Positions 4,009 through 64,000 of a stretch of DNA of 64,000 nucleotides are shown piece after piece. Positions within the stretch are counted from its first letter, which is position 1, and each line of letters begins with the position of its first letter. The DNA lies in contig OX485805.1 in NCBI GenBank assembly GCA_950295325.1, positions 44,664,758 to 44,728,757 on the forward strand, read 5' to 3'. The DNA is from Polytrichum commune (lineage: Eukaryota > Streptophyta > Polytrichopsida > Polytrichales > Polytrichaceae). The notes under the pieces are model-generated. The model did no database searches, had not been told where the DNA came from, and worked only from the letters and a program-made list of their open reading frames with translations. A program made the translations under genes and the position numbers.

Positions 4009-5159
4009 GTTTGGGTCGGCCGACCTAAACCCTGTGGCACCAGGGATTGAGGGCCATCCACACCTTGCCCGTGGGATAGGGTCGGGTTCCGGTCGACCGA
4101 CTCAAACCTTGTACAATGATGGGTTGAGGGCCATTTAGAATTCCATCACGCTGTGGGGAAAATTTTGGGTCGACCGACCCAATCCTTGTCATGGTCAACT
4201 ACAACGTCCGAAACTGGGGAAGGGGTTGGGTCGACCGACCCAATCTTTGACGGGGTTAATCCACCCACACTGGATAGGGGTTTGGGTCGGTCGACCCAAA
4301 CTTTCACAGGCTAAATCCATCCACACTGGAAAGGGGTTTGGGTCGACCGACCCAAACTTTCACAGGGTAAACCCACCACACTCGGAAGGGGTTTGGGTCG
4401 GTCGACCCAAACTTTCACAGGGTAAGTCCACCCACACTGGGAAAGGGTTTGGGTCGGTCGACCCAAACTTTCACAGGGTAAGTCCACCCACACTGGGAAA
4501 GGGTTTGGGTCGGTCGACCCAAACTTTCACAGTGTAAATCCACCCACATTGGGATGAGGTTTGGGTCGCTCGACCCAAACATTACATATGATGGGATAAG
4601 GTTCTTACTCTGTCCGTCCAAACCTTCTGAGTACCTTGGGTAAGGGCCATTAACAATTCGTTCACGATGTGCGAAAAAGTTTGGGTCGACCGACCCAAAC
4701 CTTCTGAAAGGTTTTACGATAAACGCCCATAGTGGGGTAGGGGTTTGGGTCGACCGACCCAAATCTCAGAAGGGTCAGACTAGACCCCCCCCCCAACACT
4801 AGTGAAGGGGTTTGGGTCGACCGACCCAAACCTCACAAGGGTCAGACTAGACCCCCCCCCAAACACTAGTGAAGGGGTTTGGGTCGACCGACCCAAACCT
4901 CACAAGGGTCAGACTAGACCCCCCCCCAACACCAGTGAAGGGGTTTGGGTCGATCGACCCAAACCTCACAAGGGTCAGGCTAGACCCCCCCCCCAACACT
5001 AGTGAAGGGGTTTGGGTCGACCGACCCAAACCTCACAAGGGTGAGACTAGAACCCGCCCACACTAGTGGAGGGGTTTGGGTCGATCGACCCAAACCTCAG
5101 AATGGTCAGACTAGAACCCGCCCACACTAGTGGAGGGGTTTGGGTCGACCGACCCAAAC
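4009..5159. repeat. A-family palindrome array (about 18 sites)
   Basis: Each site is 22 bp: arm GTTTGGGTCG, two variable bases (AC, GT, AT, GC or CT), then the reverse complement of the arm. The sites lie in tandem units of about 58 bp (4260-4560, with TTTCACAGGGTAA linkers) and about 67 bp (4740-5160, with linkers containing a C8-C10 run and ACACTAGTGAAGGGG). The array starts about 180 bp upstream of the start of the DUF7869 gene. Linkers drift more than the sites do. Confidence 0.95.
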
Positions 5160-7296
5160 CTCACAAGGGTCAGACTGAAACCCGCCAACACTAGTGTCGA
5201 CCGACGTATAATACAGCGTATAATGCGGCGTATAATGCAGCGGATATTGAGAGGTGTGTGGAATTTCATCTCATTGCAAAGTTCACTGCGGACTTGCATG
5301 CTGTGAATAGGTCCTCATGAACAACAGCGTGAACGAACCTCGAAGTACAGCTCCGACTAAGAGTTCTCTCTACGAATTCAGGAGTGGGAGAAGAGCAAAA
5401 AAGAACCAACTTTTGGGGGGTGCGCCCCTTTATACTATCCACCTCCACTTGCCCGACTTCCTCATTGGATGCCTTTCCCGCCTTGTTATTTCAAACCTCC
5501 TGACAGAATTCCCCGTTTTCTGTTTATTGTAGAAAATGCGCATCTTTCAATGCCCCTCTCATACCCCAGCCGTCATATGTCTTAGTCTATGATATTTAAT
5601 CTTTTTTTGGTTTTGTGTGTATATGACATACGACATTGGGAGGAAGGGTGGCGGCCACATTAATTTTTTCAAGTGTCACAACGGTATATTTTAACCAATA
5701 TGTATACCCAACCACAACTCCATTCAATGCTTTCAAGTGCAAACCTATTTAGGTGGGGTTGGGGCCATTTGGAGGTTGCAATTATGAGAGAGTTTCCAAG
5801 GCTTGAGGCCATTGTCATGATGAATAAAATTATTTATTTGTCTCCCCTAAACCCTAAACCCTAGAACATTGCGGCTCTGTTATCTCGCATGGAAGTGTGG
5901 CAATGATAAACGTATGTGGACGTTGTTAAGGGGATACTAACTAGCAATGTCGCTTTTTGGTTCAATCTTTTAATGTTATTTCAATCCATCCTCAAGTTCA
6001 CTTCAAGTTTACTAATGTGTGTGACCAAAACATCCAAAGTTGGACCCTAAACCCTTATAACATCCACAACATGAAATACGTATTGACAAAATACAAAACC
6101 AATTAGTATATCATGTTTAAACGTCCCAAATAACATATTAACATGATCAAGATTGTATTTACTATAACCTTCCTATTAGACTCTTCTTCATATTATGCAA
6201 ACAATATCTGTTATATCTTTCTCCATTATCCAATACATGTGGAGGGAACAATGAATAAGAACATGATTGCGTGAATGGCTTCATTTGATGTTGTGCTTCT
6301 CTTATTTACTTTTGCATCACATTCCATATATTAAATACATCATGAACCATGGTTTATTGGCGACTATGTGATTCCCTAAAGTGAGCAAAACATCCAAAGT
6401 TGAACCCCTTACCCCTAATAACATCCACAACATTTCATGTTATTTGAAGAAACACAAGACCATTCACTATATCACGTTTAAACGTCCGTAATAACAAATA
6501 AACATAATCAAGATCGTCTTTTCTATTACCTTCCAGTAAAAACCTATTCTCACCAGTAAGTCAATGTTATATGTTAATATTGGATAGATTAATATGTTAT
6601 AAACCTAACTCCTAAACCCTAAACCCTAAACCCTAAATACAAAATTCGTAGTTGTTCACTGCTACCTCCACATACAAACAACATGAACTTTATCTTGCGC
6701 CATTATGTAATATACGTGGAGGGAACATTCAATAACAACATGATTGCGTCAAAGGGCTTCATTTGATGTTGTGGTTCTCCGATTTACTTTTATATCACAT
6801 TCGAAGTACATATATCACGATCCATGGTTTATTGGCGACTATGTGATTCATTCAAGTGAGTATGTAAGGGATTTACTAAAAACTTGAGCATGTTAGCATT
6901 TCGACATAAGGATCATGCAATTCCAAACCCTGAGAAAATGCTCTTGGGGAAGGTATACATTTAGCAAACACATTCAAATATCCTAAATTTCCGAATTTCA
7001 TGTTGGGGGACGGGGGTTATATTTTTTATTCATTGCATATTGTGTGAGTTCTTGGCATCATTGGTAAAGTCTAAATGTCAACGATTACATCGTTAAATGT
7101 CACGCAATTGTATTATTTTTCTAACTTGCTCAAACAAAAGAGAAACCAATGATTTCAACTTGTTTGGGAAATTTAGGTTATGGTGTCATGTGAGTAGGGG
7201 TTAAGTCTTAGTTTTAGCATAACGTTGCGTTGTAAAAATGCATTAGTTGTATAAATGGTTTCATTTTGTAGAATACCGCATTTGATGTGCACCTTA
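5160..7296. other. AT-rich spacer of element A, no gene seen
   Basis: After the last palindrome comes a short run with three related words (GTATAATGCGG type, 5206-5245). I see no protein-like frame. Plant telomere-type CCCTAAA repeats occur at 5844-5863 and 6610-6637. Two diverged direct repeats overlap here and are listed separately. Confidence 0.7.
6010..6862. repeat. Diverged direct repeats in the A spacer
   Basis: 6010-6200 (AAAACATCCAAAGTTGGACC, then CATCCACAACAT and GTTTAAACGTCC) is repeated at about 6385-6560. 6232-6385 (GTGGAGGGAACA, then ATGATTGCGT and TTTATTGGCGACTATGTGATTC) is repeated at 6712-6862. The copies agree well enough to align by eye but carry many substitutions. CCCTAAA telomeric repeats lie between the second pair. 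Confidence 0.7.
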
Positions 7297-7827
7297 TGGG
7301 GCATTCCCACTTGACATTAGTTAGAAGTAGTATTAGTCTAAATGCGGTTTTAGTTATCTAGGTTTCACACATATGGCTCTTTTTAGTGCCGTGCCTAGGT
7401 GGCAAATGATGTGGCATGGCTTAAAAGTGGAGGTTTTAAGCCTCAACCACCGACGCTCCCATCGGTACCTAAACATTAGGCAAGAATATAGGAATTTTAA
7501 AAGTGTCGCCTCCCACCCTTGTGATTGGTTGCTTTTTAGTCTTAGCTATGAGGGCACGAGGAGCTTCATTAACAAAAACCGATGGTAAGATAGGTGAGTA
7601 GTAAGGCATTTGGGGATGGGACAAAAACTACCCAACATTCATTGCTTGGTAGATAAAACCATGAACATGTGTGAAAGCTACTTAACTAAAACCTACTTGA
7701 AAATCTCCGGAGCAAGTTCTTGTAGGTGCATTGGGATAGTTGGATGCCTCCGCTATAACCGAGGGAGCTTTACCCGGTCTTTATAAAATAATGAGGGTCT
7801 TAACTAAAGTCAAGTGGGAATGCCCCA
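7297..7827. mobile_element. Tourist-like (PIF/Harbinger-type) MITE
   Basis: The termini are inverted repeats of about 29 bp with two mismatches, starting TGGGGCATTCCCACTTGAC on the left and ending with its complement on the right. The 531-bp element is flanked by TTA on both sides (7294-7296 and 7828-7830), the 3-bp target duplication typical of PIF/Harbinger elements. It has no coding potential; the 71-codon frame inside has no recognisable features. Confidence 0.75.
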
Positions 7828-7830
7828 TTA

Positions 7831-8822
7831 GGGTACTCCAAAGTGTCTTGAAAATACTAATGCCCGCTAAGGGTTTACAGTTTGGCTTTAGGATTTAGGG
7901 TTCCCCGTAATCCTAATTCCGTTGGTGCCCTAATCCCGTTGGCACCCTATTCGTGCGGTTGGGGGCCAATTCCCGAGGCATACAAAACCCCAGCCGTCAC
8001 AACTTTTCGCTCTTTCTCTCTCTCTCCGCGCCAAGCATTCGCTCCGCGCTTCTTGTGGAAGCGCCGCTTTCGCGAAGCGCCGTGGCGATTCAAGGTGGCG
8101 ATTTTCTTCTCTTCCCTCCCTTCTTGTTGCTTTGGCGCCTACTGATTCTTCTCCTTCCCTCCCTTCTCTTGCTGTAGAAGTTAGGAAGTGTTTGCAATAG
8201 AACAGAAACCTAAGGAGAGAGTTTTAGAGTGCGTGAGAGTTAGTAGAGTGATTGTTGTAGAGTGAAGTAAGTAGAAGATTGTTGAAGGGTTTTCCAACAT
8301 TCTAAGCTTGCGGGTTTTGGAGGCTGTATTGTAGTTGGAGAGTTTGTGAGATTTAGGAGTTCTATAAGATAATCAGGAGGTGTTTGAGAGATACAAAAGT
8401 CATTTGAGAGAGTCAGTCATTGTTTTGAGAGATTCACTTGTTCTTAGGGATTCAGAGGTTGTTTGAAACACTCAATTGTTGTTTGAGAGATACAAAAGTC
8501 ATTTGAGAGAGTCAGTCATTATTTTGAGAGATTCACTTGTTCTTAGGGATTCAGAGGTTGTTTGAAACACTCAATTGTTGTTTGAGAGATATCTAAGTCA
8601 TTTGAGAGAGTCAGTTATTGTTTTGAGAGATTCACTTGTTCTTAGAGATTCAGAGGTTGTTTGAAGTATTGAATTGTTGTTTGAGAGATTCAAAAGAGAT
8701 CTAGGAGTTGTATGAGAGATTGTGGATTTGTGTGAGAGGTTACATTCAACTGTTTCTGTGTTATTGGAAGAAGAACACCTGTTCTAAAGCAACTGTTTAC
8801 AACAACTGCTACATACAACAAA
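7831..8822 (+). promoter_or_regulatory. Probable promoter and untranslated leader of the A ParB gene
   Basis: A GC-richer stretch with a pyrimidine run CTCTTTCTCTCTCTCTCC (about 8010) is followed by purine-rich leader-like sequence. It ends in a good donor at 8822/8823 (ACAAAG then GTATTTT). An acceptor TTTCTTACAG lies directly before the ATG at 9496. The B gene has the same plan: a GAGAG-rich leader, a donor, palindromes, then an acceptor directly before ATG. Transcription start is not determined. Confidence 0.5.
8380..8690 (+). repeat. 99-bp tandem repeat, about 3 copies, in the leader of the A ParB gene
   Basis: The unit begins GTTTGAGAGATACAAAAGTC and contains TCACTTGTTCTTAGGGATTC. Copies start at about 8382, 8481 and 8580, with few differences. 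It lies in the inferred noncoding first exon. Confidence 0.85.
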
Positions 8823-8942
8823 GGTATTTTCTTTTATTATATGCAATAAGTGTTTGTCAATTGAAGGTATTGTAGCATACACAACGCATAAGCATTGTAT
8901 ATGCTACGTGCCAACTTTTAAAAATTACATTAAAATAGGAAA

Positions 8943-9469
8943 GTTTGGGGAGACGACCCAAACACGGCCACAGGTTTGGGTCGGTCGACCCAAACACAGC
9001 CTCTTGTTTGGGTCGACCGACCCAAACACAGTCTCTTGTTTGGGTCGACCGACCCAAACACAAAACAAAGCATCATGTTTGGGTCGACCGACCCAAACAC
9101 AAAACAAAACATCATGTTTGGGCCGAACGACCCAAACATAGCCTCTTGTTTGGGTCGGCCGACCCAAACACAAAACAAAGCATCATGTTTGGGCCGAACG
9201 ACCCAAACAACGTCTTCTAATTATAAACTCATAAAGAAATCCATGATTTTTGCATCAATATAAAATTCACATCCACTAAAAAATAATAATCAAGGAATGT
9301 ATCAAGGAAAAGTATCAAGTAATCCTGCATGTCACAAACAATATAAAATGCAAATCCACCCAATAATCAAAACATTCTTATTATCAATACAAATGATGCT
9401 GAAATATATAAATATACAATCCACCTAAACCTATTCATGTCGTAGATGTTTGGGTCGAACGACCGAAAC
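8943..9469. repeat. A-family palindromes in the leader intron (9 sites)
   Basis: Sites start at 8943, 8973, 9006, 9039, about 9078, 9116, 9148, 9187 and 9448, inside the inferred intron 8823-9495. Several have a decayed left arm (GTTTGGGCCG with AA centre), and the first lacks one base. Linkers of 11-18 bp are themselves repeated (ACAAAACAAAGCATCAT). Confidence 0.93.
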
Positions 9470-9495
9470 TAACATTGCACATTATTTTCTTACAG

Positions 9496-12400
9496 ATGGC
9501 TCCAAAGAAAAGACCCGGCGAAAGGTGGTTCATGCCTGCGCCGGACATGTTGTGGCAGGAGCACGAAACCCCGCAGGATGACTCCTATTCCCCTAAGGAC
9601 GGGCTTGTCCTCGCGTGGTCTATACAAGTGGTTAAGGGTTCGCAATACAAAATGATTTTTGTTGTGAAGGTTGGGACCGTGGAGAAGCACACATGGGCTA
9701 CTCTTACGGGGTGGGAGGTGGCATCGGTTCAGTCTCTTGGAGACTACGTGGATGTCATCCTCGAGAACAACGCTGTCCAGAACGCGCATATGTTTATGCA
9801 CCAGTTCTCCGAACCCTTTGACGCTATCTATGCAAAAGAAACATGTGTAGAACCAGACGTCATCAAACCGGAGTCCATATTCATCGATAACAGTACATCG
9901 AACACAAAGGTGTCGAGCAGATTCACGAAACTAAAGCATGCAATCAGCGTGCTCAACAAAGCCCTGCAGAGCAAAACCAAGTCTCAGCAACCCGTGAGGC
10001 GGAAAGCAACCACAGAGGAAGGAGCAGGGTCGTCAAGACCTCAATCGGTGAGGATGCCGCTACCAGTACCGGCTGACTCGCGTAGGACCACTCCCTCCCA
10101 AACACCTACGAATAGTGAGACCCCTACACCTTCTGGGAGCCGTCAAACAACTCCATCCAAGAGGGCGAGAGAGTCATCTGTGATGACTGACGAGCCAGTC
10201 TCACCGGAGTTGCGCATGCCGAAGCCCGGCGAAGAGGTGGATGCAGGGGAGCTGCAGAAAATCGTGAACAATTTCACGACGAAATGCTCCCACTGTTTTT
10301 TCATGGGCAGGGATTTTAAGTTCGACGTGAACATCAGCCAGTGCCATCTAGCGCCACCGGAGAAGTGTGTCCGGGCAAAGGAGGACGCCTACGTTGACTG
10401 GATAATCGCGCAGATCGTTTGCGAGCAGTTTAAAGACGACAGGCAAACGATAGTAGTGATGCCACAGGGTCTCAAGAAAATGCCTACACCAGAAATGTGG
10501 CCCACAATTCAGAAGGGCGATTTTTGGCTCATAGACGGCCAACACAGCGTGGAGGCATCCAAGAAAATCCAACTCATGAATGAGTGGGATGATCCGAACA
10601 ATCAGAAGGAAAAGCTGAAGGTTTGGAAGGCACTGGTGGTGTGGTCTGACGACGAGACCAAGCTCAGCGACATCTCCCGGTACTTCAATATGGGAAATAA
10701 GAAGAGGGCCTACCAAGCTTCCTGGATAAGGAATATCATGGCCTCGCGGGAGGTGTGGGAGTTCTATGGTAGGCCTCCCAAGGAGAGGGAGAATGCGAAG
10801 GACAAGAATCCCAAATGGGAGGTGAGTATTGTTTAGGTCGACCGACCCAAACTCCTGATGCAGCCTTGTTTATTTAGTTTGGGTCGACCGACCCAAACTC
10901 CTGATGCAGCTAGTTTATTTAGTTTGGGTCGATCGACCCAAACTGTTGTTGCAGATGTTGGTCATGATATGGGTTGGAAATCACATGCACTTAACTAACA
11001 CGCATTCAAATGTTTTGTTTTGTGGACGTGCAGGATTTCAAATACCAAATGATCAACAAATTTTCCTCCATTGATAATTCGAGCCACAAGCAGAAGAAAT
11101 ACAGCGACCTCAAGGGGGAGATTTACTTGATTACAACATCTGACTCAGTTTGGAGGAAGTGGAAAACCGTGTTTGAAAAGCACGAGACGGGGGATTTGAT
11201 CGACCCCGACACTGGCATTTTCTTCAGCCAAACCTCGCGCTTCAAGCAGATGAAGCCTCTCGTGAGAGAGTTCTTTAGAACTCTTCAAGGGCTGTCAGAG
11301 ACGGAGGTGGAGAAGGCGGCATCTCACATCCTGCACGTGGCACCCACGGCGAAGAGGTGTTGGGTGCACCCGAAGATTGTCTTCCAAAAGCCCAAATCCT
11401 TCGTTCCTTCATGCTACACCATGAAGGAATGGACGGATAACAGGAAAAAGAAGACGACTATCGTGCAGGAGCTGCATAAACTAGTGCCAGAGAGGAATAT
11501 TGTCGTGGACGGCGAGGTCCATGAGGCTAACTGGAGAGCATTCAAAGCTGAATATAAGTTCACCAGTGCCTCCATGGTGGCTCTAATAAGGGAAGCGGGG
11601 GACGACTTCTTGCGGGCCAAGATGGTGAAGGGTGGGAAGAACCGGGCGCTTCCGGATCACACAGCGCGTGCGTTCTCGAACTTCATCAAGGAGAAGAAGA
11701 TTGTCCAGTTTGAAGGGGAAGCGTACTTCAACCTTGTCACCGCCGACCCGTTGAAAATTCAGGGCTGGCCAGGTCAAGACGCCAGAATGGCGATAAGGAC
11801 GAAAGCAAGGGACCGCTTTCCTTTTGGGATGATTGATTTCAGGAATATTCCTGGAAGCTCATTTGAGGGCACGATGAGCACCCTCTTCTATGACCCCTTC
11901 CTATCTAAGTTCGTCGATTATGCAAGCCCTAAGTTCAGGGAGGTAGATATCTGGCTTTGGATAGTCGAGGATAGGAGGGCGGAGCAGGTGTACGAGCTTG
12001 TCCGGAAACTGCAGCCGGAGTATGCAGTCTCCAAGTCTCACTACATCGCCGCACCGGCGGAGGGAGCTTACACGACGTTGAGGGACAAGAAGACCAAGTT
12101 CGTCAACGTCTTGTGTTTGTACTTCGTGTACAAAGCGGAGTTGCTGAAGGTGCCGAACCACCCTATATCCCGGATGGACAAACTCTTCCAAGTTCCAGAA
12201 GGGTTGGGTGTCAACAAGTGCCTCTACGACGAGGCTAAATACGCGAACTATCCTTTAGATGAGCTGCGGATGGAATTTTACGTGAGAATGATGAGGACGC
12301 TGACGAGGAGAGGGGATTGCATCTTCAACGTCTTCGGAGGCTCTAAACCTATCTATGCTGCCATGGTAAGCGACTTTCTATAACTCGTGCGCAGTTTGGG

Positions 12401-15400
12401 TCGATCGACCCAAACTAGGCTCTGTGTTGGTTTGGGTCGATCGACCCAAACTAGGCTCTTTGTTGGTTTGGGTCGATCGACCCAAACTAGTCTCTTTGTT
12501 GGTTTGGGTCGATCGACCCAAACTAGGCTCTTTGTTGGTTTGGGTCGATCGACCCAAACTACACATTGTACTTGGTCTTGTTTATGTCCCTCGCCTAATT
12601 CTAATGTCTATATAACTTGGATTGTGTAGATGTCGGGGCTGAGTATATACTCCTACATAGAGGATGGCGATCTGCCATTTTACAGGACGCAGAGATCGTT
12701 GGCGAAGAAGATGGACATCCTCGATTGGATCCCGGGTAGCTACGTCGACGAGGTTGTTCAGGGGGGCGAAAACCCTCTTGATAGGGTGAGGCGCATCAAC
12801 CCGGAGGAAATGGCCATGAGGGCACAACCCAAGAACCCGAACCTCTTGTCGGGTTGCATCCGGGCAATCCGTCCCGCACAGAAGGTGGCGATGTCGAGGA
12901 GGAGGAGGAAGAAGAGGAGCACGAGGAGGCGGAGAAGGAAGGCGACGTGGAGGAAGGGGCAACGGGCTTCACGCAAGAATCCGAAGCCCCTCAACGGAAG
13001 AAGGCGATGCGGGCGGCAACCCCGCAGAGTAAGCTCGTGCCCGTCCTGACGGTGGACGATGCACGGGACATGTACTCCAGGGACGCGACCGCCACGTTCA
13101 GGGAGAGGAGGAAGATGAAGGGGAAGAAGCTGTATGGCGACTACTCCGTGGAGGAGACCATTGCCATAAGTAGTGAGGACGACGATGACATTGAGCTCGC
13201 CAAACGGCTAAGATCAGATCCCCCGTCCCCGACAGCGTTCGCTGGCATGGTTAGGGTGAAGCCCGAGGTCCTGACTGTGGAGGAGGCGAATGAGAAGATG
13301 AGGAGGGACGAGGAGCAGCGAGTCCGCCTGCAGAAGGCTGCCGCGGAAGAACCCTCAATGCGGAACGAGGTAGCAGAGCTAAGGGCTCTCCTGTTGGAGC
13401 AGGAACGACAGAGGGCGATGGCCCAACCTCCGTCCCACGCCGAATTGATATCACAAGTGATACAAGGAATGTGGGCGCAAGGTTTGGTGGTGGCTCCTTC
13501 CAGCTCCTTCCCGCACTTGCCCCCCGGCTTCCATCCGCAGAGCATCCCTCAGCAGCCTGTGCCGCAATCGTCTTTCAGCTTCCAGCATTTGATGCGGCCC
13601 CACCAAGTTCCGTACGCGCCGGTCCAGCAAGTGGATGACCCCAACATCTGGCGCGTCTCTGGAGCCTCCTCCCCTTTGGGCCCTCCACCACTTCGGCCCC
13701 CGATAGTCATGGCGCCCCCTCACCAATCGGACGACCCCAGGATGTTTGGGTCGACCGACCCAAACCCACCATCCACTGGAGTGTCCGAAGGGCCCTCTCC
13801 AGATGCAGGACAGTTTGGGTCGCCCGACCCAAACCCCGTTGCAGCGCAGTCCTCCCTTGACCAACATGGGTGTCAACTAGACACGGCCATGCTAGATGTT
13901 GAAGGCTTGCAAGGGCCTGGTGATACCTCTACTCCTAACCAAATCGATGAACCCATGCATGATGCAAATGCGGAGATTGGTTTAGGACAAGGGCCTGATG
14001 CCGATCGTTTGCAGGAGAAGGTTCCTGACGTCGTCGGAGAAGGCGGTGGCGAGAGAGGCGGGGCAGCGGGGACGGTGGAGGCTTCCACATCGTCGAGACA
14101 TGACCAGGGCGATGTAATACACTGAGCCCTCCCCAGTTTGGGTCGACCGACCCAAACTTCCTGGGTCATTGTCTTGTTGGCGTGGTCGTGTCCCCCTTGC
14201 TAGGAGGAAATGCACACCCCCTGCCCCCCATGCTCTACACTTGCTCCCCCTCCCCCCAACGTGCCCCCCCGCGATCCCCTTCGTTTCACCTGCACTCGAC
14301 TATGCTCGACCTTGGCGGCGCGCAACCAATTTTGTAGATGTAGAATTAGGATAGTGTGAATGCCCTCGTTCACCGCGGTCCCCCCCCCCCCCCCCCAATC
14401 AAATTGTACATAGAGATTTGTAAAAATAAAATTATTATTTTTGGCGCCCATATGTTTGCATCCGTGTCCCAATGTATGTTGTTTGCCTTGTATGTTTTTG
14501 TTGCCACCAATGGTCCAATTCTTCTTGTGTTTGCACAAAATTTCCGTTCTGCTTGAGATGGACATAGCATAACATAGTCCTCGTCCGCCTTCTCTCGCTC
14601 GTCGCCGCAGGGTTCGGAGCATAGCGTCGCGGCTCCCCACCGATCCTCTCCGAGGAGTGTGGAGGACAGCGCGGTGGTCCCCCCGATTTTGCCCTCGCCA
14701 CCTTCGCCTCCCAAGACCCGGTTCCTGGTGCTAGACCTCAACGGGGTCCTTGTCCAGTGCGTGCATTGTCCGAGGGTCCCAACGGTGCCTTTCTGCAAGC
14801 CTGAGGACGCCAACTACGATGGTCCCCCCGCGTACATCAAAAGCAAGCTAGTGTACCTCCGCCCGTGGCTTCGGCGCTTCCTACAGGTCGCCCTATCCAA
14901 ATGGTGGGTGATCGTGTGGAGCTCCATGAAGTCCGAGAACACCCAGGCCGTCGTGGAGTTCATCTTCAAGGGACTCCAACCCCCGTGCTTGGTCCTAGGA
15001 CAGGACTCTTGTAGAACGTTATACACCCCCGAGGGCAGGGTTGTGAAAAAGCCCAACAACCCCGCCGTAAACCAATTTCTTAAGGTCTTGAAGCCAGTCG
15101 TATGGGACCAGCGTCCGACCATGGTCGGCTGTCCCTACGACGTTCGCCCCACCCGTGACAACACGTTGATGGTGGACGACATCGCTTCCAAAAACATTTT
15201 GAACCCGACCTCCAACTTCATAGTTTGCCCCACGTGGACGGTCGAGAAGGTCCGAGACCGCTTTTTGTTAGACCTACTTAAGTACATTCAAACGCTCGTG
15301 GGGAGCGGACTACCCGTGCCCCGGTTCCTTAGTTGTAATCCGATAGGCGAAAGATACATGGATCCGAAGGACTATATGTACAGAGAGTTGTACGCTCACG

Positions 15401-15423: not shown

Positions 15424-15542
15424 GATACTACATGGTGTGCCATTGTGTGTGATATATTATGCCTCAATTGTATATCGATTTTCACATGCTCCCCCCTCCC
15501 CCCCTCCCCTTGGGTTTTGTTTTGTTTCCTTTTTTGCGCCAG

Positions 15543-16329: not shown

Positions 16330-16465
16330 GCCATAGTAGGCGTAGGGTTGTGGGCCATAGGCAAGAACATTTTGGGTCGCACTATCCAATGGATGTGTGG
16401 TGTTAGCATGCTATGCATTTTACATGCCACACTTTGTATGTTTTTTTTGCAATAATATAAGTGTC

Positions 16466-34521: not shown

Positions 34522-34532
34522 GGGATTCCTTT

Positions 34533-51900: not shown

Positions 51901-53529
51901 AATAGTATTGATAATGCTTAAAATAGGTTCATATTATAACATAGATTCCATACTTTAACATTCTACTCTGTAACATAGATTCCTATTATAACATACCAAA
52001 GTCAATTGCACATTCTCATAATATGCGTGTAAGATGCTCAATCGCGCTTGACATCAAGCATAGCTATGATTTCCAATTCCTTATTGATGAAGTCGTGAGC
52101 ATCCATAATAGGCCCACTTTCACCTTAGCCCATGAACTCAAGTTCGATTGTTCTCTTGTTTTCTCTTGGACTATGAACCATTAGAGTTCCAAGAATTCAA
52201 AATTTTAAATATAACATATATTATGGCAACGAAAATAATGGCATGACATAAGAAGCGGCCATGGATACTTATAAAGCATCAAAGTTGCTGGCCATTAGAA
52301 ATCATCACACATAATACTTGCCGCGCATAATGGGTACATGCCCACCTCCCATACCCAATAAACCCTACTGGATAGGTAAATACTACTAGGAATGAACATA
52401 AATCGTTTAACATAAAAAAAAAAATTAGGCAATTTTAGCATAAATCTCTTTGTGGCTTTGCCCTCACCCCCATGCATTGAGAATCACTTCATAACTTGGT
52501 TTTAAAGTCATTCTCCTAGCGTTTATTCTTGTAATTGTATCTTAAGTTATATTATTACTAGATTCATTATGTGCTCTTCATTGGCTAAGATTTTTGACGT
52601 TCATAGTCGACATCTAATATGAACACACATGCTTGCGATAACACAAATTCAAGAATGACCTTCTCAAAGGCACTAGAGTTATCATTTATCCCACTCAAAT
52701 TTTTGGGTGGGGGTTGGTTGTTTTGCATGCAACACATATGGACTTAGCCAAAATTAGCGGTCAACTAAAGAGAAAGGACTTTGGAAACTAACATATTGAA
52801 GTACAAGGTGATATGCAAGGCCGCGGGAGACATCGGAATCGAAATCATATTGAGAGGATGACAAAGGAGGTGGCCAACGAGTGGGCCACATCAAGCACCA
52901 CATGAATCTCGAGCAATATTAAGATTGCATCTCCATAACCATACCTCATCGATTAAAGGGAATTCTAAATGATGGCATAAGATTTACGGAAATGAGAACT
53001 TGAATAGGAAATGGGTCAAACACTTCAATGAATGAATTCATGTAAATCATGTGTACTCTATGAATTGAATGGTTTGTGGAATCTCGTAAAGATACTTTAG
53101 CGAGGAGTAGGTTAGGAATACATAAAGTCTTGAGACTCTTTCAAATTGAAATATTGAAATATAATTGAATAGAGGAAGAATAATACGTAGGTCATTCAAT
53201 CCATGAAAGAGATAAAAATAACTCCATAAGTTATTAGAGATGAGAATGATTTACATGCATGAACACTTAGCTTTGACATTAATGTCTTAGGGACTCGGGG
53301 GGGGGGGGGGCACTGGCGAAAAATGTAGGAACTACGTGCGATAAAATATAGGGTCTTGTATAAAATTTGGCGTAAAATTTGTAAAATTATTAGATGTAGT
53401 ATAGGGTGCTTTGGGATTGTGAAACATGATTATATGTAATATAGCATTTGACAAAACATGATTAAATTACCTAAGTGGTACATATAAAATAGCATGGACA
53501 AAAAGCGATAGTTTCAAAAATTAAATACT

Positions 53530-53826
53530 TTGCCACCAAAATATGGCATGTTCTATATAGGAAGGGTTCAAAAGATAAGGGTGAAGGTTGGTACTAAGTG
53601 GGGCAATTGTTGGCAACCCATTGACTTGATGAAACGTGCAGTCCAGAACGGAAATAGAGAGACGCTCTTCCCAACTACTATGGCTTACCTCCATTGGTTA
53701 AAAAAACAGCTGGGTCTCAACAAATATAAGTATGTTGAGAGTGATTGTGTGTGGGTTGATGTGGATGCTATTCTCTCAACAGTGTCTCTAGTAACAATGA
53801 ATCAACTAGCAAAATCTACACCTTAG
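53530..53826 (+). CDS. Short protein-like frame, possibly an exon or remnant
   Basis: About 98 codons ending in TAG, with good amino-acid composition: FYIGRVQKIRVKVGTKWGNC, then LFPTTMAYLHWLKKQLGL and CVWVDVDAILSTVSLVTMN. The first codon is TTG, so a real start is not seen, and no obvious splice acceptor marks the left edge. I do not recognise the family. It stands alone in the C spacer and could be the C-terminal piece of a transposon protein. Confidence 0.25.
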   Translation: MPPKYGMFYIGRVQKIRVKVGTKWGNCWQPIDLMKRAVQNGNRETLFPTTMAYLHWLKKQLGLNKYKYVESDCVWVDVDAILSTVSLVTMNQLAKSTP

Positions 53827-55257
53827 ATGAGGTAGATGCAAACTCATTGAATGAGTTCATTTCAAATAAAAAATAAAACCTGTTAAATTTGTACTATCTC
53901 ACACATGTGGAGATATAATTTGGAGAAAGGGTTGAATGATCATTAGTATACCTTGAAATCTGTAGTAGCCATTTCAGTTCGATTACCCTCATATCTCCCA
54001 CATGTGTAAATGGTAGCCTAGCTAGTTTAGGTGGATTTTGCTTGCATGGCGTGGGATTTTCTACCAATGTGTAGGATTGGAAGATCAAGGCATCAATTGT
54101 AGGGCTTCTGCAAACCTTGTAAATGTGACTTTGAGACACATGTGGCTGGCCTGTTCCCTAAGACCTCAAGGTTTCTAACTGTGTTATCCAACACAACTTT
54201 CATTCGTTGGCTCGTGTTGCTTAATGACATGTAATTGCAATCTTTTGTTGTTATTGTTTAGTGTTTTGCTTTGCCCGGACTTCAGTGTGACCCTGAACCC
54301 TAAACCCTAGTAAATGTTTGTTTCTCTTACTTTGTACACGTGCTTCTAACGAGAATTCTACTGTATCATACACTTTAAGGAATGGGGGCAATCAGGGGGG
54401 AAAAATTGCATATAAGTAATATAGGGTACCATAAAATCAACCATCCAAGAATTTATAATTACCAATAGGGTGCAAATAATCACAACAATTTACCATTATT
54501 TCAAAAATTAGCATCCCTTATAATCCTTTCTCATAGGTAAATAGCCCCCATTTTAATAGATCATTATCGCAGGTGTATGCAAAATATACAAGGGAATGCC
54601 CCCCCCCCCCCCGAGCTTAGGGAACATCAACTTGAATTCTAAAGGCACTGACTCACTTAAGAATTATTGGACAAGGATATCATATTGAGATTGGAAATTA
54701 GTAAACATATGATCACAGATCCTCAACATAGTTCACATGCCAACCCATACCCCATTGTATGCCAGACTATCTCTTCATATGTGAACGCTACATGAGGTAT
54801 AACTTAGAGCCATGTCATGATGATGGATGAGTTCATCCATTGACCTTCTCATGTTAGCAACTTGTGATGCAACATTGTCATGGATGATTGCTATATTGTC
54901 TACTGTGATATAGTGATAACGTACATGTTCATATTAAACGGTTTTGTTAATTCCCACTACATTCCCAAGGGTAAGATGCTTAAGCTCACTATTGGCAAGT
55001 GTCATGTGTTTCATTTTAATATTTAAGAGGAATACATCCTTAAGCATACTAATGGCATGTCATGTCAAGATTTTAATAAGTGCACTCAAACACCCAGTGT
55101 CATGTGACGACACTTACGGTGTTGTTGTTAATCTGCAATATAACATAGCATACCCTTCAAAATAGGGGTTTCCATTACTGTGGGTTTTTCATCTGTATAT
55201 TTGGATGAAAATCCAATGTAAGGCAACGAAAGTACAATAATATTACAGTGGGCCACA

Positions 55258-55775
55258 CTAAAAATGAACAACAGGACTTAGAATAATATAAGGTTTCAAA
55301 AATGGCAATGGACATCTTTAAAGTACTATAGGGTATGGAAGAATATGTAATTTGGAATTATATGAAATGCAAGGCTTTTTCTATTAACCCAAGGTTGAAA
55401 ATGCTAATGAAATAAATAACCCTAAACCCTAAACCCTAAACCCTAAACCCATTAGTGTGGTAGTCCACTTAGTGTTGGACCTTACTAGTTGCTCGCCATC
55501 TATTTGTGTCCTACTCATATGCAATTAGGAGTCTAGCAACAACTAATTCTCTTTTATCGCGCATCCATGTGCAAACAACCACTATTTTATATGGGGTTAT
55601 TACTTTCAATTTTTTTCTTCACATGCTATGATTATGTAGTTTTCTTAGTCGGGTTAGTAGAAAAGGGCCTTGCATTAATTACAAATCCAAATAATCGATT
55701 TGTTCCATACCCTATAGTACTTTAATGATGCCCAGTGTCATTTTTGACACCCCATATTATATTTGCTTTAACATG
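55258..55775. repeat. Inverted repeat around telomere-like sequence
   Basis: Left arm 55258-55390 (AAATGGCAATGGACATC, then TTTAAAGTACTATAGGGTATGG) has an inverted, diverged copy at about 55650-55775 (CCATACCCTATAGTACTTTAA). The CCCTAAA tract 55419-55450 lies in the loop. A related pair is at 59101-61450. Confidence 0.75.
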
Positions 55776-58700
55776 GGCGGACGTTAAATACCCCCTCACG
55801 AACTTTTGGAGGTATCTAATCTGGGTTGGGGCAATCTTGTAGAGAAAATTTCTAAACCCGACCAAAAATTGCATTCTTGAAGGCCGCTTGACTACAAATC
55901 CCATATTGAGTGCACTAAAATCCGCTTGACTTACCATAAATAACTTATATTTGTCATTCTAATGATAGATTAGTGCAAGTGTTTATAAGAGAATAAGGTA
56001 TAAATAAATGATATGTTATTTGGAATTAGACTCGTGGGACAATGTTATAGATGGGGTATATATTACTGAGAAAATCATAAGTTTCTGACTATAGCCTATC
56101 TGAATTATTTAATAATTTATCCTCATCACATATTGTATTATCTTTCAAATCACATAGTGTATAACCGTTACTTTTAAATAAATATAATTATATGATACTA
56201 ATACTAATACTAATACTATTATGCAAATACTAATAATAACAATACTAATACTAATATTGAATTGAGTTTTTTAGTTCACCAATTTATCATAAGGTGATAT
56301 ATATTATTGTGCCATATTACAAATGTTTGAACAATCACACATGTGCAAAATAAATGAATTATGAACAAAAAGATGTCTATGACAACACTTCATAATTATA
56401 TATTGCACACATTGATATCTTACAATATTTATCAAAATAACCATGTGAAATTCAAAGCCACATCATGGCCTTGGAAACATCTCATGGGAGGTTGGAAAAT
56501 AGGCTTAGAGCATCCAAGGCCACATCATTGCCCCTTGCCAACAAATTAATATTTATAAAATAACTATGAGGGAGAAAGTAGGTCTTACATGCCAACTCGG
56601 AGGTATTTCACTAAAGTAAGCTCCATCCGAGCTTCTTGATGGACTCATCCGATTTTTGTTACCGGATGACTTTACTTGAGTGCCACGAATCCCCGGCCAT
56701 TTCAAGTGGGCTTGTACGGTTAAGGTATTTGTTGACTTTCATATTTACGGCCTCGAATGTCCTTCCCAAAGTGCACATCTAAGGGTACTCATGTAAGTAT
56801 AACCATGCTATCACATAGAGCCTTATTATAACCTAACATAGTCAATCGCACACTCTCAAAATATTTTCGGTCATTGTAGGGTCGATAGTGCACATGGATT
56901 GACAACCTAAGTACCAAAGTACTAAATTTGAGCAACAACAAATCCCACATGGATGCAACATCTATGGCTACACGGTCCAAAATTGAGCTTTTATATTCTC
57001 CTTAAAGGTGATTTCAAAAATACTTTATGGCAAGTCCACAAGTCATACCCATGGATTGGAGCATGACATTATGGAAAGGTTACTTAAAGGTTACTCAAAG
57101 GTATTTGACCCCGATTTTAAAGAGTAGTTTAATAATCTCTAAATAGAAATCTCTAGTCCTATTGTTACCAATGCTTTCGACTTCCCCTCCCTTGGTCTCC
57201 CTCCCCTTAGTAGATGTTGTATTGAATCATCCCATGATACCTACCTATGGTGCAACAATTAGAGTTTATTGCATTGAGTACTGACTGTTGTTTTGAGAGC
57301 TCACATGCTACATAACTAAATAAATTCATTTTTTATTTTAGCAATTAGTTAAAAAAGACAATTAGTTAACAAAGATAATAAATTCATTTTTTTATTTTTT
57401 TTCCCAAAGCGGGTCACGGGTGCTTATGAGTGGGGCTATGTGCGTACATGCACATGAAGGTTTTACAGGGGCATGGGCATATGGTTTGCAAGGGTTAATG
57501 TATGTGGTTGGGTTCATGCAAGATATGAACCCAAAATGATTCATACGGACTGGTGTAATGGGTCAGGATGGCACATGCCCAAACTAATAAGGTATGTGGG
57601 GCTCATTGATAGTTGTAGTTTGAGGAGGGAAACTTGACTAGGTTGGTATTCTAGCACATGGAAATTGATTTTCATTTGAGCGGAGAAACCTTGGTTTTTA
57701 TATACATTGTTAGTGTGAACCATAATTTGTTGTATTTACATTGAGAGTTCATGATGCCATGTTCTTACTATTCAAACCTTGCCCAAAGTTTTCTTAATTT
57801 ATGGAGATTTTGTTTTTCATTTTTCTAGCATCCCATGATTAAAAATCAATCAGTCTAGTCAATCAACAACTAAAGTGCGTCAGTACAAGGATGGCCACGT
57901 TTCAACTTGTGTTTTGGGCAACGAGCCGAATCTGCTACCCCCCCCCCCCCAACCACCATTGCCACTCCACATGGGAGTGCTCAGTCCAAAAGATGCTTGA
58001 AGATACCGGCAAAACCTTCACCAACGTCAGAGAACTCTATTTTGTTTCACCAAAACGATTGGTACATGAAAGTGTGCCCTAACTTGGGCTAGACTAATTT
58101 GGGGTCAATTCAACTAAATAGGGTTTCCAATAAACTTTGAAAAATAACCTCCTTACTACATACTAGTTTAAAGTTTCATTGTTGGATGAATGAGAGTAAT
58201 ATGCTCGTATGCGATAATCCCATTTCGTTGGCCAAAAAAACATTGATATGTATATAGGGCCTCACATTAGAAGCCCAAGCCCTTGAGGATGTAAATGCTA
58301 TCACAAATTCCCCATGCGTAGGCAAAGCCTATCAATCCGAGGGCAAAGACAAGAAAACATGCTCACATACAAGCACACCCAACATTCATCCAAAAACATT
58401 TTATTTAAAAATTCAATTGGTTTGACACCGTAATTAGCTTCAAAGTTACGGAATTAGTCTAAACCAAGGGGGTTTAGTTTTATATTTTCTGTCGGATCGA
58501 TGAGAGGTACTCTTGAATGTGAGGTTTTTCTCCACATATGGAAGAGCACATCCTGAAAAGGGGAAGAAATTTTTATTAGGAAAAATTGAGTATGTTTGCT
58601 CTATAATGTACATGAGTTTGGGGGTGGTGGGGGGGGGGGGGGCTCATTATAGGGCTTATTGCCTTCCTTTTGGAAGCCGGGCTATGTTGGGTGCAACTAT

Positions 58701-59100
58701 CTATTTGGGGCATCCAAGTTTGGGAAGAGGGGGTTGACATTGCAACCATTGTATCTCATTGCATCTATTAAGGGGTTGTATGTGTTTGTTTTGTATTGTT
58801 GTTTCAATGTATGTGTTGTGGCATAAGGTTTAGGTTAAGGAGTATATGTCCTCTAGCTGCATTGGGAGTTCCAATCACACACGTGGTGTCCAAACTAAGT
58901 CTACCCAAACATGTGCATTATCCAAGGACATGTCAAATGATTGGAGTCGCGTTTTTCTACAGCCTTGTCGATCGGTCAGCCTTAACCATCATTTCGACAT
59001 GGGATCTCAAAACGGTCATCCAAAGGGCATAAGTGGTGGGCCCATAAGTATATAGCGTAAAACCTAGGAAGTGCAGCTAGAAATGTAGTGGACACATACC

Positions 59101-61450
59101 GGGGGGGGGGGGTTGTGATGTATTGGAGTAGAAATATACGTGCGAAAAATTGAGAGGGTATATGGGGACGTAAAATGAACAAAATGATTTAGAATAATAT
59201 AGGGTGTCAAAAATGGCGTTGGACATCTTTAAAGTACTATAGGGTTTGAAATAATAGGTAACTTGGAAATATAAGTAATGCAAGGCCCTATCCTACTAAC
59301 CCAGAGCTGAAAATGCTAAGGAAATAAATAACCTTAAACCCTAAACCCTAAACCCTAAACCGGTTTATAAATGGATCAACATCTCTAGCGTAGTGCTATA
59401 AATTTGATGATTTCCCCAGTGTAAATAGGGCATTGACGCCCGAGTTGGCCACATATATATATATATGTATATATATATACATACATACATACATATAGAC
59501 ACACACACACATATTTGTGGCAAAGGAACTCTATGGTATGTTGCTACATGTCCAACATCATGATTGATAAGAATGACAAGTGATGCTAAAAGTTGAAAAA
59601 TGGGTTGTGCAAATCAAAGAGGTGCCATGAAAATGGACTCTCTCTCCCTCTCTCTCTCTCTTTGGTGGCATTTTGCATGTTTCAGTCAATACATGCAAAT
59701 TCATTTTGTAACATGTGGCGCTTTCAAGTCAAAGATGGATTAACCCTAGGCTTGAGCTATTGGGAGAAGGGTCGAATTGTCAAATTGTGTATAATGCCAT
59801 AGTAGGAGTCTAGGTAGGTATTGAGTCATCACATCCTATATCATACTATTAATGGGGGTGGGCGAGGCAAGGTTGTGGCAAGTTGACAAGGCTGGGCATG
59901 GTCACAAATCATTGGTGCTAAATTTGAGGTCACATGAGAAAGTTATTAAATGGGCATCTTGGATAACTTAACTTGATAAAACCACCACAAGCCATTGTGA
60001 ACCGTTGATGATGAGGTTGAGGTTGTTTGGGAAGAGTGTTCAACAATCATCTTGGATAACTTAACTTGAAAAAACTGCCGTGAACCATCGGGGTTTAGGT
60101 TGAGTTTGAGGTTAAGGTTGAGATTGTTTGGGAAAGGTGGTCCACTTAACTTCATAATTATAAATTCAAGGTTTTATGTTTTGATGTAATAATTCTCAAT
60201 GGTCATCTTCGATAACTTAAGTACATGATTGTGACCTTAGGGTTTTGATGTTTAATGTTTCAAAGTTGTGAACAAAACCAAGAGGTTTATAAAGGAAAGT
60301 GACACATACTCCTTTGGTAAGATGAATCCACAAAAGTGCAAACTCAAATTCATGATTTAACAAAGCAATTTAGCGATAGGTTCTTCCAATTTCATTGGAA
60401 ATATGAACCAAGTTCATTATTTAAACAACCAATTTCAGTACATGTTGTGAACAATTTCATGATTTGGTACCCATATTCAAAACTTCACAAAATCAATTTT
60501 AGGAAATGCATAACTCTATTTCACAAAGAACATTACATCATGTATAGGATTATCCTAGTAAACAAATTGCTCCCTATTCCGCACAACTATACACTACACT
60601 CCAAAAACGTTATGCGCTTTGCTCACGCTACCAACACTCTTCCTATAATCAAACCCCCAACTACACTACGTACACTCTCAAACCCATGAGATTACGCACT
60701 CCAACTATGTTGGGTATGAGTTGTTTGCTTTGATGTACAATAATCAAAGACCAAAGGAAAAATGACATTGCTTGCTTCTAACTTCAAGGTAGTGTAATGA
60801 AGACCAAAGAAAATTTGACATCAAGGCTAGAGGCTTCCAAGTAAATACAAAACAATGAGAAGGCAAAGAATGCGAAATGAGGCGGCGAGAATTTGAGAAA
60901 TAAAAAAACCATAAAGTGTGAACTTGATATGGAAGATTCACAAAGTTGATAAAGATAAATGTCCACTATCATGAAATTGAGGTGTGCCACATGTCAAGTC
61001 GGTTAAGAAGAATGATCATGGGGATACAACAAAACATTTGCTCATGAAATACAACATTGGACAATGGGGTGGAGCGAGGCAAGTTGACAAGGCTAGGAAA
61101 GTATAAGTATCTTGGGGGGGGGGGGCAGTGTGTTAAAAAGTTAAGGATATAGGTGCGAACAACCATTATTTTATAGGGGGGGTGTTACTTTCAATTCTCT
61201 TATTTTTCTCACAATGATGCTATCATTATGTAAATTTCTACTTTGGGTTAATAGAAAAATGGCTTGCATTACTTATAATTCCAAATTACCTATTATTCCA
61301 TACCCTATAGGACTTTAAAGCTGTCGAGCATACTGGTTGATACCCTATATTACTCTTAACTCCATTTATAATTTTTAGCCCCCATGTTTTTAAAATACCC
61401 TATCATTTGTTCGCACGTATATTGCTACTCCAACCAATGACTACCCCCCC
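59101..61450. mobile_element. 2.35-kb element with long inverted repeats, noncoding
   Basis: Left arm 59101-59305 begins with a G12 run and contains GGAGTAGAAATATACGTGCG, then GGACATCTTTAAAGTACTAT. The right arm, about 61240-61450, carries the inverted words CGCACGTATATTGCTACTCC and ends in a C7 run. The arms are diverged. Inside are a CCCTAAA tract, AT microsatellites and no coding frame. Looks like a foldback-type or MITE-related element; class not determined. Confidence 0.6.
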
Positions 61451-62177
61451 TCGAGAGAAGTATATGAAACTATTCCGAAGTTGCAACACAATGGGCCACA
61501 ATGCTAGTTGCTCTAAAAGGAGCAGGCTAGTGTTGAGCTTCAAACCTTGAATTTGGGTGCAATCATATTCCCAAATTAGACTGCAATCATGAAAGATAAT
61601 AGTAGCTTTGACCGGGTTATCCTTGCACCTTGCCCACAAAATAGGCATCCTATTCACAATTATAAAATATAAAGGAACTATAACTCTGGTGAGAGAATCC
61701 CATGTCGTTGTTAACTCTTGCGGATGAAACAATACCTAACCTTCATACTATTCATTTTGCAAGGGTGCCCATCATAAGTGGTGGACCTGTTATGTGTGCA
61801 CATGTCCTTATGTAATTTTGGCATGAGTATGCTTGGTAGTGGTATGAGGTGTATGCAAAGGTTATCCAATGATCATTGGTACCGCAAAGACTCTCCTTCG
61901 CCTTGTAACAAATTTTCACTCCATGTACATACGATGTAGAACCCCACTACCGAAGGTCATCATTATTCAATATGAGGAAGGTTAGAACGTGATTAGCTAA
62001 TAGCGATAGGAATTGGAGGGAATGACGTCTATGTACTTACGAATTTGGAGGGAATGCCTTGTACTTCCTCATGAGAAGTTGATGGCCATGCTCACGACCT
62101 ATATAAAGGCCACCATTTGGAGGGTCATTTCTTTCTCCTCATTTGAGTCCACCCCCCTTCACCCTTGAGGAGCAACC

Positions 62178-64000
62178 ATGGAGAGCGTGCCTCACATGAG
62201 TGAAGAGGTTGGTTTTATAACCCCAATGTGCATCCACTTTCCCACGGGTGCACCCGTGACAACACTCTGGCCGTACCCCTCCTGTACGGCCAGTCTGCCA
62301 CGGGTGTTCACCCGTGGGAGACTCTGGTACCGGGTTTGGGGCCCCCACGGGTGTTCACCCGTGGGAGCTTATGGTTTTTATTTCGGTTATCCTAGCATAT
62401 GTCAGAATAGAAGTTATCCATATGCTCATGTGTGTGACAAACTTCTAGTAGTAGATGTCAGCATGGTAGCCTCCCACGGGTGTTCACCCGTGGCAGTTCA
62501 TGATTTGTATTTTAGTTCTCCCTACATATGTGTGGTTATAAGATAGGCATGTATCATGTGTGTGACATACTCAATAGTTGTATATGCAATTATGCTTATT
62601 TGTAAATTTCCTGCTGAGTATGTGAAATATGTTGTCAATGGGTAATTGGTACATATTATTACGAGTTGGGAGTTTCGTGATGCATTATGATAAATGATGA
62701 CGATGATATTCGTTAAACTGGAATGTTGACACTATCCTGAATGGCAACTATTTCGCTAGCACTTGGGCCAGCAGATGTGACACCTACATGCATAGTAATA
62801 ATTGTACACAAGTAAGTGTTAGGGGTGATAGTTTTGGTGTTTGGGCTTTGTGGAAACTGGTAATAAGGGTCATTCTCCCAATGGGGATATGATAAGTAAC
62901 ACATACTTCACTTGAGTTGTGTGAAGTGAGGTGTAAAGCTCACCCCTATATGAATGTAAATATTCTGTTGAGATGTCAATGTTGTCCCCCACGGGTGAAC
63001 ACCCGTGAGCTTCTGGTCAATGTGTGTTGACATACTTTGATATCGATGTTCAGATTCCACATTACATTGGACTGTCGAGGACGGACTTGAAGGGGAAGGC
63101 CGTTGTGCTCTTTGATGATGAGGGCCATGCTTTGTGTGATGGATTGATTTGCAACACAAATCCGTTGGATTGTGTTGACAATAGCATCCTAGGGGCTGAG
63201 GATGTTGGAGTTATTATCTTGAACCCAACTGACAATGTTATTTCGCAAGATTGGGAGAATACGCTGCACCGATGGCCACTTTCACTCACCAAATTTGAAG
63301 GACATACATTAGCGGAAATATTGTTGGTCCATCATAATGCGACCCGCGAAGTTCAAAGTCATCGGCGCTTGCTTGGAAAACGCCAATACAACACTGTGAG
63401 GATGTGTGCACCTCGGCCACCTGGGAAGAAAATTTGGGGAGCCACTGAGGAGCATGCGCGGATGTTATCAGCGGTGGATTGTTGTTCCGAGCATTGTTGC
63501 CAGGTATTCCCAAGGCCTTTGTTGATGAGTATTCGGGAACACTACTTCGCATTGCCATTCAATGCTCGGAAGCTCATAGCCCTGTCGGTGTTCCAATCGA
63601 TCCAGAAACATGAGCACAACGGACGTGAAATGGTGCAGTTGGAAGGGAGAACAATATGCACTCGAGCATGGATGAACATCTATATGATATCAAGGGCACA
63701 ATATAATAGGAACAAGGCTGAAAGCTTGATGGGGGTTAGATCTCGAGATCATGGAAATACAGGAACTAGAAAACCACGGGCGAATACAGTGCAAACACGA
63801 GCCACCCTTGGAGTATTGGTTGAGGGTAGGGCGGACGCCATGCCCCATATGACTCGGACTCTTCCAACTGGTGAGAAGATAGGGACGGAGATGCTCCCTG
63901 TGGGAACAACGTGGTGCAACCTATTGCAGGAAGTGAACAACTTGGACGGAGACCTAGGGTACACGCCTATCTCCACGTCCACCTTCAGCCGCCTACATCG
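62178..64000 (+). CDS. DUF7869-like putative transposase of element C, partial (runs off the window)
   Basis: The main exon starts after acceptor CGATGTTCAG at 63053 and stays open for 315 codons to the window edge, with no stop. Matches to copy A in order: IGLSRTDLKGKAVVLFDD, GLICNTNPLDCVD, GAEDVGVIIL, LHRWPLS, DCCSEHCCQVFPRP, DHGNTGTRKPRA, DAMPHMTRTLPTGEKIG and PVGTTWCNLLQEVN. The zinc site and catalytic-like half lie beyond the window. A first exon may start at ATG 62178 (MESVPHMSEEVG, compare MEGVGGRGDSF in copy A), with an intron that holds the C palindromes; its donor is not fixed. It diverges from the C ParB gene across the spacer. This is the only DUF7869 copy with no visible lesion. 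Confidence 0.7.
62241..63009. repeat. C-family palindromes upstream of the C DUF7869 gene (5 sites)
   Basis: Sites at 62241, 62297, 62344, 62473 and 62988. The 62241 site lacks the 2-bp centre: its two arms abut and the right arm is incomplete. The others have TT or AA centres. These link the right-hand DUF7869 gene to the ParB gene 13 kb to the left. Confidence 0.93.

Follow-up and report, generated by a model that had tools for sequence, protein, structure and literature searches.

Clade-specific palindromic words in the non-coding DNA of large plant transposons

It is an old question how the specificity of a DNA-binding protein can shift in concert with that of tens of scattered sites, and the question is raised by a stretch of Polytrichum commune DNA (assembly GCA_950295325.1, contig OX485805.1, positions 44,664,758 to 44,728,757), analysed here in its full length of 64,000 nucleotides as the window. 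Three adjacent elements in it, A, B and C, each carry many copies of a palindrome of their own (hereafter, word), composed of a 10-bp arm, a 2-bp centre and a complementary 10-bp arm. We found that such words co-segregate with the clade of the accompanying genes in the homologues and genome windows sampled. On comparative grounds, we consider it rather probable that these are transposons in which a transposase-like DUF7869 gene is accompanied by a ParB-like/degenerate-methyltransferase protein that would recognize its element's own 21–22-bp palindrome, for self-recognition and against silencing.

With the centre left free and up to two mismatches allowed, the window contains 36 A sites (4009–14136), 25 B sites (17772–27284) and 15 C sites (42294–62988). 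At up to four mismatches the numbers were 39, 28 and 15, in agreement with the approximately 38, 28 and 16 counted by eye in a first-pass annotation of this DNA, and no site of any family was detected at this threshold in ten Markov shuffles of the window. The 10-2-10 geometry proposed there was confirmed in all three families, as was, at up to four mismatches, the absence of sites of one family from another family's element inside the window; a single C-like string, at 21270, appeared when five mismatches were allowed. The arms had been described as completely different. They are indeed distinct words, but only 5 (A–B), 7 (A–C) and 6 (B–C) of the 10 positions differ, and a fourth family, D, bridges them, differing from B, A and C at 1, 4 and 5 positions, respectively. 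The centre dinucleotide is free in B. In A, 29 of 36 centres are AC, AT or GT; within the window the 15 C sites all have AA or TT, and a C site beyond it (L011:1150) has AT. In 12 A, 19 B and 13 C sites, picked to thin out tandem copies, the arms hold 1.76, 1.69 and 1.73 bits per position and the flanks 0.01–0.14 bits; thus, it is the 22 bp that recur, rather than the tandem repeat around them. Within A, the repeat-unit length varies among arrays (56, 64–67, 32/39, 45 and 36 bp) with the word remaining constant, and some sites are single rather than tandem.

A, B and C share a common plan, in which a DUF7869 gene is divergent from a gene with three main exons (exon 1 ParB-like, exon 2 degenerate methyltransferase-like at its end, exon 3 of low complexity), followed by a NIF-phosphatase-like gene. 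Words occur upstream of both the DUF7869 and the ParB-like gene, in the first and second introns, within exon 3 and downstream, and the intron 1 word lies about 10 (A), 5 (B) and 45 bp (C) past the donor. The conserved exons, which represent 43% (A), 44% (B) and 20% (C) of the examined spans, are free of sites except for one 1-bp overlap, between site 62988 and a nominal open reading frame (ORF) start. The features are listed below (TIR, terminal inverted repeat; LTR, long terminal repeat); exon borders correspond to GT-AG introns and were read by eye and by homology.

−1534 to 16867 (window part 1–16867), minus strand: element A, with perfect 28-bp TIRs and ATAC on both flanks
L010:3758–4306, left of the window: last exon of the A DUF7869 gene (tblastn)
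14–582: tandem array of a 141-bp unit, four copies, 93% match, in the A DUF7869 gene region, probably an intron
1229–3835, minus strand: A DUF7869 gene, two main exons; Pfam PF25273, E 9.3e-41, for 1229–2254
2276–3835, minus strand: part of the same gene homologous to the B and C first exons
4009–5159: A words upstream of the DUF7869 gene, 17 sites at up to two mismatches, spaced mostly by 56 and 64–67 bp
8974–9469: A words upstream of the ParB-like gene, 8 sites
9496–10821, plus strand: A exon 1, ParB-like, with a GQH motif
10831–10943: A words in intron 1, 3 sites, the first about 10 bp past the GTGAGT donor
11034–12365, plus strand: A exon 2; residues 226–444 with a predicted amino-DNA-methyltransferase fold, motif IV replaced
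12394–12559: A words in intron 2, 5 sites at 36-bp spacing
12630–14125, plus strand: A exon 3, low complexity; A words at 13744 and 13813
14136–14157: A word downstream of exon 3
14578–15423, plus strand: A NIF-phosphatase-like gene, motif DLNG; Pfam PF03031, E 1.4e-12
16866–17609, minus strand: B NIF-phosphatase-like gene; Pfam PF03031, E 1.5e-15
17772–18289: B words downstream of, or in the last part of, exon 3 (17772, 18160, 18268)
18261–19658, minus strand: B exon 3 region, low complexity; word at 18648
19672–19772: B words in intron 2 (19672, 19751)
19783–21130, minus strand: B exon 2, methyltransferase-like
21151–21227: B words in intron 1 (21151, 21206), one beginning 5 bp inside the donor
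21237–22528, minus strand: B exon 1, ParB-like, with one in-frame stop
22557–23189: B words upstream of the ParB-like gene, 9 sites
26410–27305: B words on the DUF7869 side, 8 sites
27313–38089, minus strand: LTR retrotransposon within B, outside the word system
38301–41663, plus strand: B DUF7869 gene; Pfam PF25273, E 3.3e-40, for 40079–40861
42294–44576: C words around the NIF-like gene (42294, 43145, 44452, 44555)
43409–44233, minus strand: C NIF-phosphatase-like gene; Pfam PF03031, E 4.6e-11
44719–46575, minus strand: C exon 3, low complexity; word at 46064
46715–46736: C word in intron 2
46833–48127, minus strand: C exon 2, methyltransferase-like
48187–48208: C word in intron 1
48250–49525, minus strand: C exon 1, ParB-like
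49868–50255: C words upstream of the ParB-like gene, 4 sites
62297–63009: C words upstream of the DUF7869 gene, 4 sites
63009–64000, plus strand: first part of the C DUF7869 gene, continuing in L011, where the further C word at 1150 lies

At the exon 3 words (13744, 13813, 18648 and 46064), the palindrome dictates part of the protein sequence, which in A reads FGSTDPN and FGSPDPN.

The sites lie where the first-pass annotation placed them, but the elements are larger than it had drawn. Homology between A in the window and a second A copy on contig C6 begins exactly at AACACTATATTCGTTAAATTGAGACTTT (window coordinate −1534), the left flanks being unrelated, and the same 28 bp occur inverted at 16840–16867, with ATAC on either side as the target-site duplication. 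Element A is a mobile TIR DNA transposon. What had been taken as decayed A sequence reaching 16705 does include A copies with 4–5 mismatches (16495, 16595 and 16684), which are situated just inside the right end of the element. B is split by the LTR retrotransposon (identical LTRs of 1784 bp, target-site duplication CATGT, Gypsy-type by eye), whose insertion is very recent. C extends past the window, with sites at 65150 and 66269. In addition, an outer TIR pair, at −3055 (L010/L009 side) and 66885 (L011), shares its 13-bp tip with A and is flanked on either side by AGTG. This arrangement suggests nesting of A, and probably also of B, inside the element that carries C's genes. The ends of B were not found; a 12-bp inverted match (16735/41800) was rejected in this role because 16735 falls inside A once the TIR of A is known.

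Do the words follow the genes beyond these three elements? Three protein searches yielded 216 homologues, mostly ORFs of short contigs from the sources ena, jgi and lgn. Two of these, P0212 and P0213, carry the name Physcomitrium patens, and P0018, from the JGI source, matches C exon 1 at 100% identity over 383 columns. Predicted ORFs often overrun the splice donor into the intron, and the word is therefore readable in translation; the C exon 1 query (48170–49525) itself reached into intron 1, and one row of the profile used in the first search included the translated C word. All palindromes up to two arm changes away from words A–D were tested. Homologues with a word within one arm change numbered 43 of 154 in the A clade, 8 of 16 in the B/D clade and 4 of 35 in the C clade, and none of 11 other proteins had one. 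With the B and D words pooled, all 55 word-bearing homologues among the 216 match their own clade, and the numbers per family in shuffled proteins were 0–0.2 with one change and 0.6 with two. The one exception at two changes, an A-like string in P0061, was treated as chance because of this last value.

Word D was predicted from homologue tails before it was found as DNA. Twelve exon 1 homologues form a sister clade of B (37–40% identical to B in exon 1), and the tails of several of them read TTTACGGACG or a near form, which differs from B by one arm base together with its paired base; in P0200 and P0204, the D change is visible in both arms. The word was then recovered as DNA from the genome to which the window belongs: L015 carries D twice in exact form and twice in near form, next to a gene of the D clade that shares 88% identity with P0205 over 185 residues. 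L015 is one of twenty 10-kb windows taken at set coordinates (15 far from the window, 5 within about 0.7 Mb) in this assembly of 408 Mb and 64 contigs, C1–C7 of which sum to 406 Mb. These seven contigs would fit the n = 7 of Polytrichaceae, and the Physcomitrium homologues likewise point to a moss host. Words at up to three mismatches occurred in three of the twenty, L015 (D), L023 (B) and L030 (A), and tblastn with the window exons and three D proteins detected genes in the same three, each matched in family; the gene in L030 is a DUF7869 gene, 94% identical to that of A. L023, located approximately 60 kb from the window, looks partial (three B sites at up to two mismatches in 20 kb), and L015 and L030 lie on contigs other than the window's. 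The second A copy has the same plan; over 20 kb, 29 A sites were counted at up to two mismatches, and the other five words were absent. At least four word families (A, B, C and D) coexist in one genome. A further two 10-2-10 palindromes, with arms GGACTTCCAT and GGCGCTGTCC, recur in the sampled windows (L023:9359, L026:1508 and 8801, L032:9173; L026:8325 and L029:9575), in some cases without these genes.

A scan of prokaryote assemblies added contigs of another assembly, that of CADCWO010000269/243/074 (L001, L002, L003, L008), of which L001–L003 encode distant members, 28–29% identical. These contigs are filed under a cyanobacterial metagenome-assembled genome and are presumably plant contamination, because the genes on them are spliced. 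L001 and L002 contain TTCAGCTCGA-N-TCGAGCTGAA (8 sites each) and L003 contains TTATCCTCGA-N-TCGAGGATAA (5 sites), all at up to three mismatches; at this threshold neither word was found in the other word's contigs or in the window, and Markov controls gave 0.0. The 1-nt centre indicates that the exact spacing is not fixed across the superfamily. As far as the contigs reach, the sites again occupy upstream positions, both introns, the region after exon 3 and the surroundings of the NIF gene. Within this 4.8-Mb assembly, 15 of 16 sites of the TTCAGCTCGA-N-TCGAGCTGAA type (up to two mismatches) are in the L001 and L002 contigs, a backward control giving one match, and the sixteenth, with a paired arm change (TTTAGCTCGA), is upstream of a DUF7869-like gene (by eye). 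The agreement in 55 of 55 homologues (B and D pooled) and three of three sampled elements, and the new words at the same gene positions, support the suggestion that each element may have co-evolved its own protein–site pair.

Changes in both arms are visible in the peptides of P0118 (two sites, arm GTTTGGGCCG), P0115 (GTTTCGGGCG), P0117 (GTTTCGGTCG) and P0202 (LRPRGRK), as well as in D relative to B. P0024, P0025 and P0026, whose visible left arm is GTTTCGGGCG, form one clade with P0021 (SH-aLRT 99). One-sided changes also occur among homologues, for example, in P0019, P0063 and P0163.

Which protein might bind the words? The ParB label of exon 1, used in the first-pass annotation, is based on the GQH motif and a weak PHROG match ('ParB-like partition protein', E 0.0075) in 1 of 10 members. 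An amino-DNA-methyltransferase fold is predicted for the exon 2 region, the fold matches including many N6/N4 amino-methyltransferases; sequence identity to M.BceJIV, CcrM and M.RsrI (PDB 9c3s, 6pbd and 1eg2) is 9–13%. Amino-DNA-methyltransferases have the catalytic motif [DNS]PP[YFW], which is replaced here by DxRxxP (D268-x-R270-x-x-P273, invariant in a 32-row alignment, the motif being placed by eye), and the S-adenosylmethionine (SAM) loop region retains only part of its pattern in the alignment. Similarly, the NIF domain (PF03031) scored above the cut-off in A, B and C, but the catalytic DxD of NIF/FCP1-like phosphatases is absent, being read by eye as DxN in A, B and C and as DLNG in L002. 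DUF7869 is the more conserved protein across elements, and its presence in each of the three is supported by Pfam PF25273 in A and B and by homology in C. No DUF1985 was detected in Pfam scans of 20 window ORFs and 34, 32 and 10 aligned members, and PDB sequence searches returned nothing useful. A viral origin was dropped because viral_contigs yielded neither relatives of exon 1 or DUF7869 nor exact copies of the A or C word; an exact A word was also absent from genome_contigs.

We infer that the ParB-like exon 1 plus catalytically degenerate methyltransferase product would bind the palindrome as a symmetric dimer, and that the palindromes spread over the element's own non-coding DNA may act as self-recognition sites. 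Such binding could let the element and its sister copies remain expressible in spite of host silencing, in the manner of VANC in VANDAL, and/or regulate the element's two divergent genes. New words would arise via paired changes in both arms and spread through the element by tandem duplication and conversion, the end state being a private recognition code for each clade.

Spm/En and Ac carry subterminal motifs on which a transposition complex is built, and the palindromes might likewise be transposition sites bound by the product of the DUF7869 gene or by a helper. Consistent with this, words precede the DUF7869 gene in A, B, C, L008 and the second copy of A, and they differ between clades; however, many of them occupy internal positions (in promoters, introns and exon 3), many kb away from the A ends at −1534 and 16867, and DUF7869 is the more conserved protein, which makes this explanation unlikely, though one to be taken seriously. 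Plain transcriptional control, by a dimeric transposon-coded factor acting on the two divergent genes only, overlaps with the regulatory clause of the mechanism that we propose and agrees with the site clusters upstream of both genes in A, B and C. It would not require repeated sites in introns, exon 3 and downstream, or 17 sites before one gene, and as a full explanation it appears quite unlikely. That the methyltransferase-like protein is still active and marks its own palindromes as self is very improbable: the fold matches do include many amino-methyltransferases, but the catalytic motif is replaced in all 32 aligned rows and the SAM loop is only partly kept. We give just as little credence to intronic RNA hairpins or neutral satellite repeats. 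Many sites do occur in tandem arrays and introns, but a 2- or 1-nt centre is too short as a hairpin loop on full arms, sites are also found upstream of genes, those of different arrays have no common flank, the sites show fewer substitutions than their neighbours (in a biased comparison), and the same positions recur with new words.

Several observations weigh against recognition of a private word by the ParB-like/methyltransferase product. No Pfam family matched exon 1 among the window ORFs and aligned members, and its ParB label is tentative. The DUF7869 and NIF genes co-travel with the words and are thus candidate binders too. The uniformity of the C clade comes from 4 of 35 homologues with a word, a thin test. 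Word and gene clade do co-localize in three of three sampled windows, but the families are not wholly unmixed: of 8 sites within two mismatches of D in 20 kb around L015, one (L032:793) is an exact B word, so the two closest families show real mixing and are not fully isolated. An A-like string with four mismatches is present at 66584, within the C element just beyond the window. Three AT-rich stretches of 3 to 12 kb between the divergent genes of A, B and C (5200–8950, 23200–26400 and 50300–62250), with no ORF above 158 codons, are free of words. Between the two A copies, sites mismatch at 3.4%, other non-coding positions at 16.0% and exons at 4.9%, a gap that is overstated because the sites were chosen as near-consensus in one copy and the repeats align on them; gapped positions are 71 of 720 in sites versus 272 of 5451 in other non-coding DNA. 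Finally, arm changes in the window comprise 46 one-sided, 3 complementary two-sided and 3 non-complementary two-sided cases, as plain decay predicts. The predominance of one-sided changes indicates that decay is common and that paired change is chiefly a fixed difference between clades.

A wider interpretation, which we hold tentatively and regard as nearly balanced between true and false, is that of a land-plant transposon superfamily with a bacterial-type ParB-like and dead-methyltransferase self-recognition code, with at least six private words (A–F, two spacings), each rewritten over many sites together with the protein, and many families in one nucleus without cross-recognition, representing a second independent origin of anti-silencing. 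Intermediates are present (A variants in metagenome homologues; B and D one arm base apart), so the path of change is traceable and testable by binding swaps.

Among the open-licence papers searched, DUF7869 was unmentioned and no account of this system was found. Large eukaryotic DNA transposons such as KDZ/Zisupton carry accessory chromatin-related genes, a feature shared with the elements described here. Bacterial ParB-parS combines palindromic sites with a dimeric protein; the palindromes and the GQH motif of exon 1 resemble it, whereas here there is no Pfam ParB match, the sites run through the introns of a nuclear transposon and no partner ATPase occurs among the genes described. M.BceJIV, CcrM and M.RsrI differ in that motif IV is lost here. 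VANDALs are MULEs (Mutator-like elements), and VANDAL/VANC is the closest known system, although by protein family the present elements are not VANDALs. Related VANC proteins of Arabidopsis act on family-specific 8–9-nt non-coding motifs (YAGTATTAY; AGTTGTCC/AC) and cause loss of methylation, VANC carries DUF1985 and diverges faster than the transposase, and protein–motif co-evolution was proposed (PMC5735166, PMC10398659). The word palindrom* occurs in neither main text (PMC5735166, PMC10398659). The first-pass statement that no described plant element has this pattern may therefore hold for the palindromes and proteins, but VANDAL/VANC is a plant precedent for short family-specific non-coding motifs that are paired with a fast-evolving element protein. 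The two systems share an element-coded protein evolving faster than the transposase, short non-coding motifs that are often tandem (here also single or in exon 3) and a motif that differs between related families and follows the protein. They differ in the motifs, 8–9 nt there and 21–22-bp palindromes here, and in the proteins, DUF1985 there and ParB-like plus degenerate methyltransferase and DUF7869 here. If the role of the words is anti-silencing, the strategy of the Arabidopsis VANDALs arose at least twice, from unrelated proteins.

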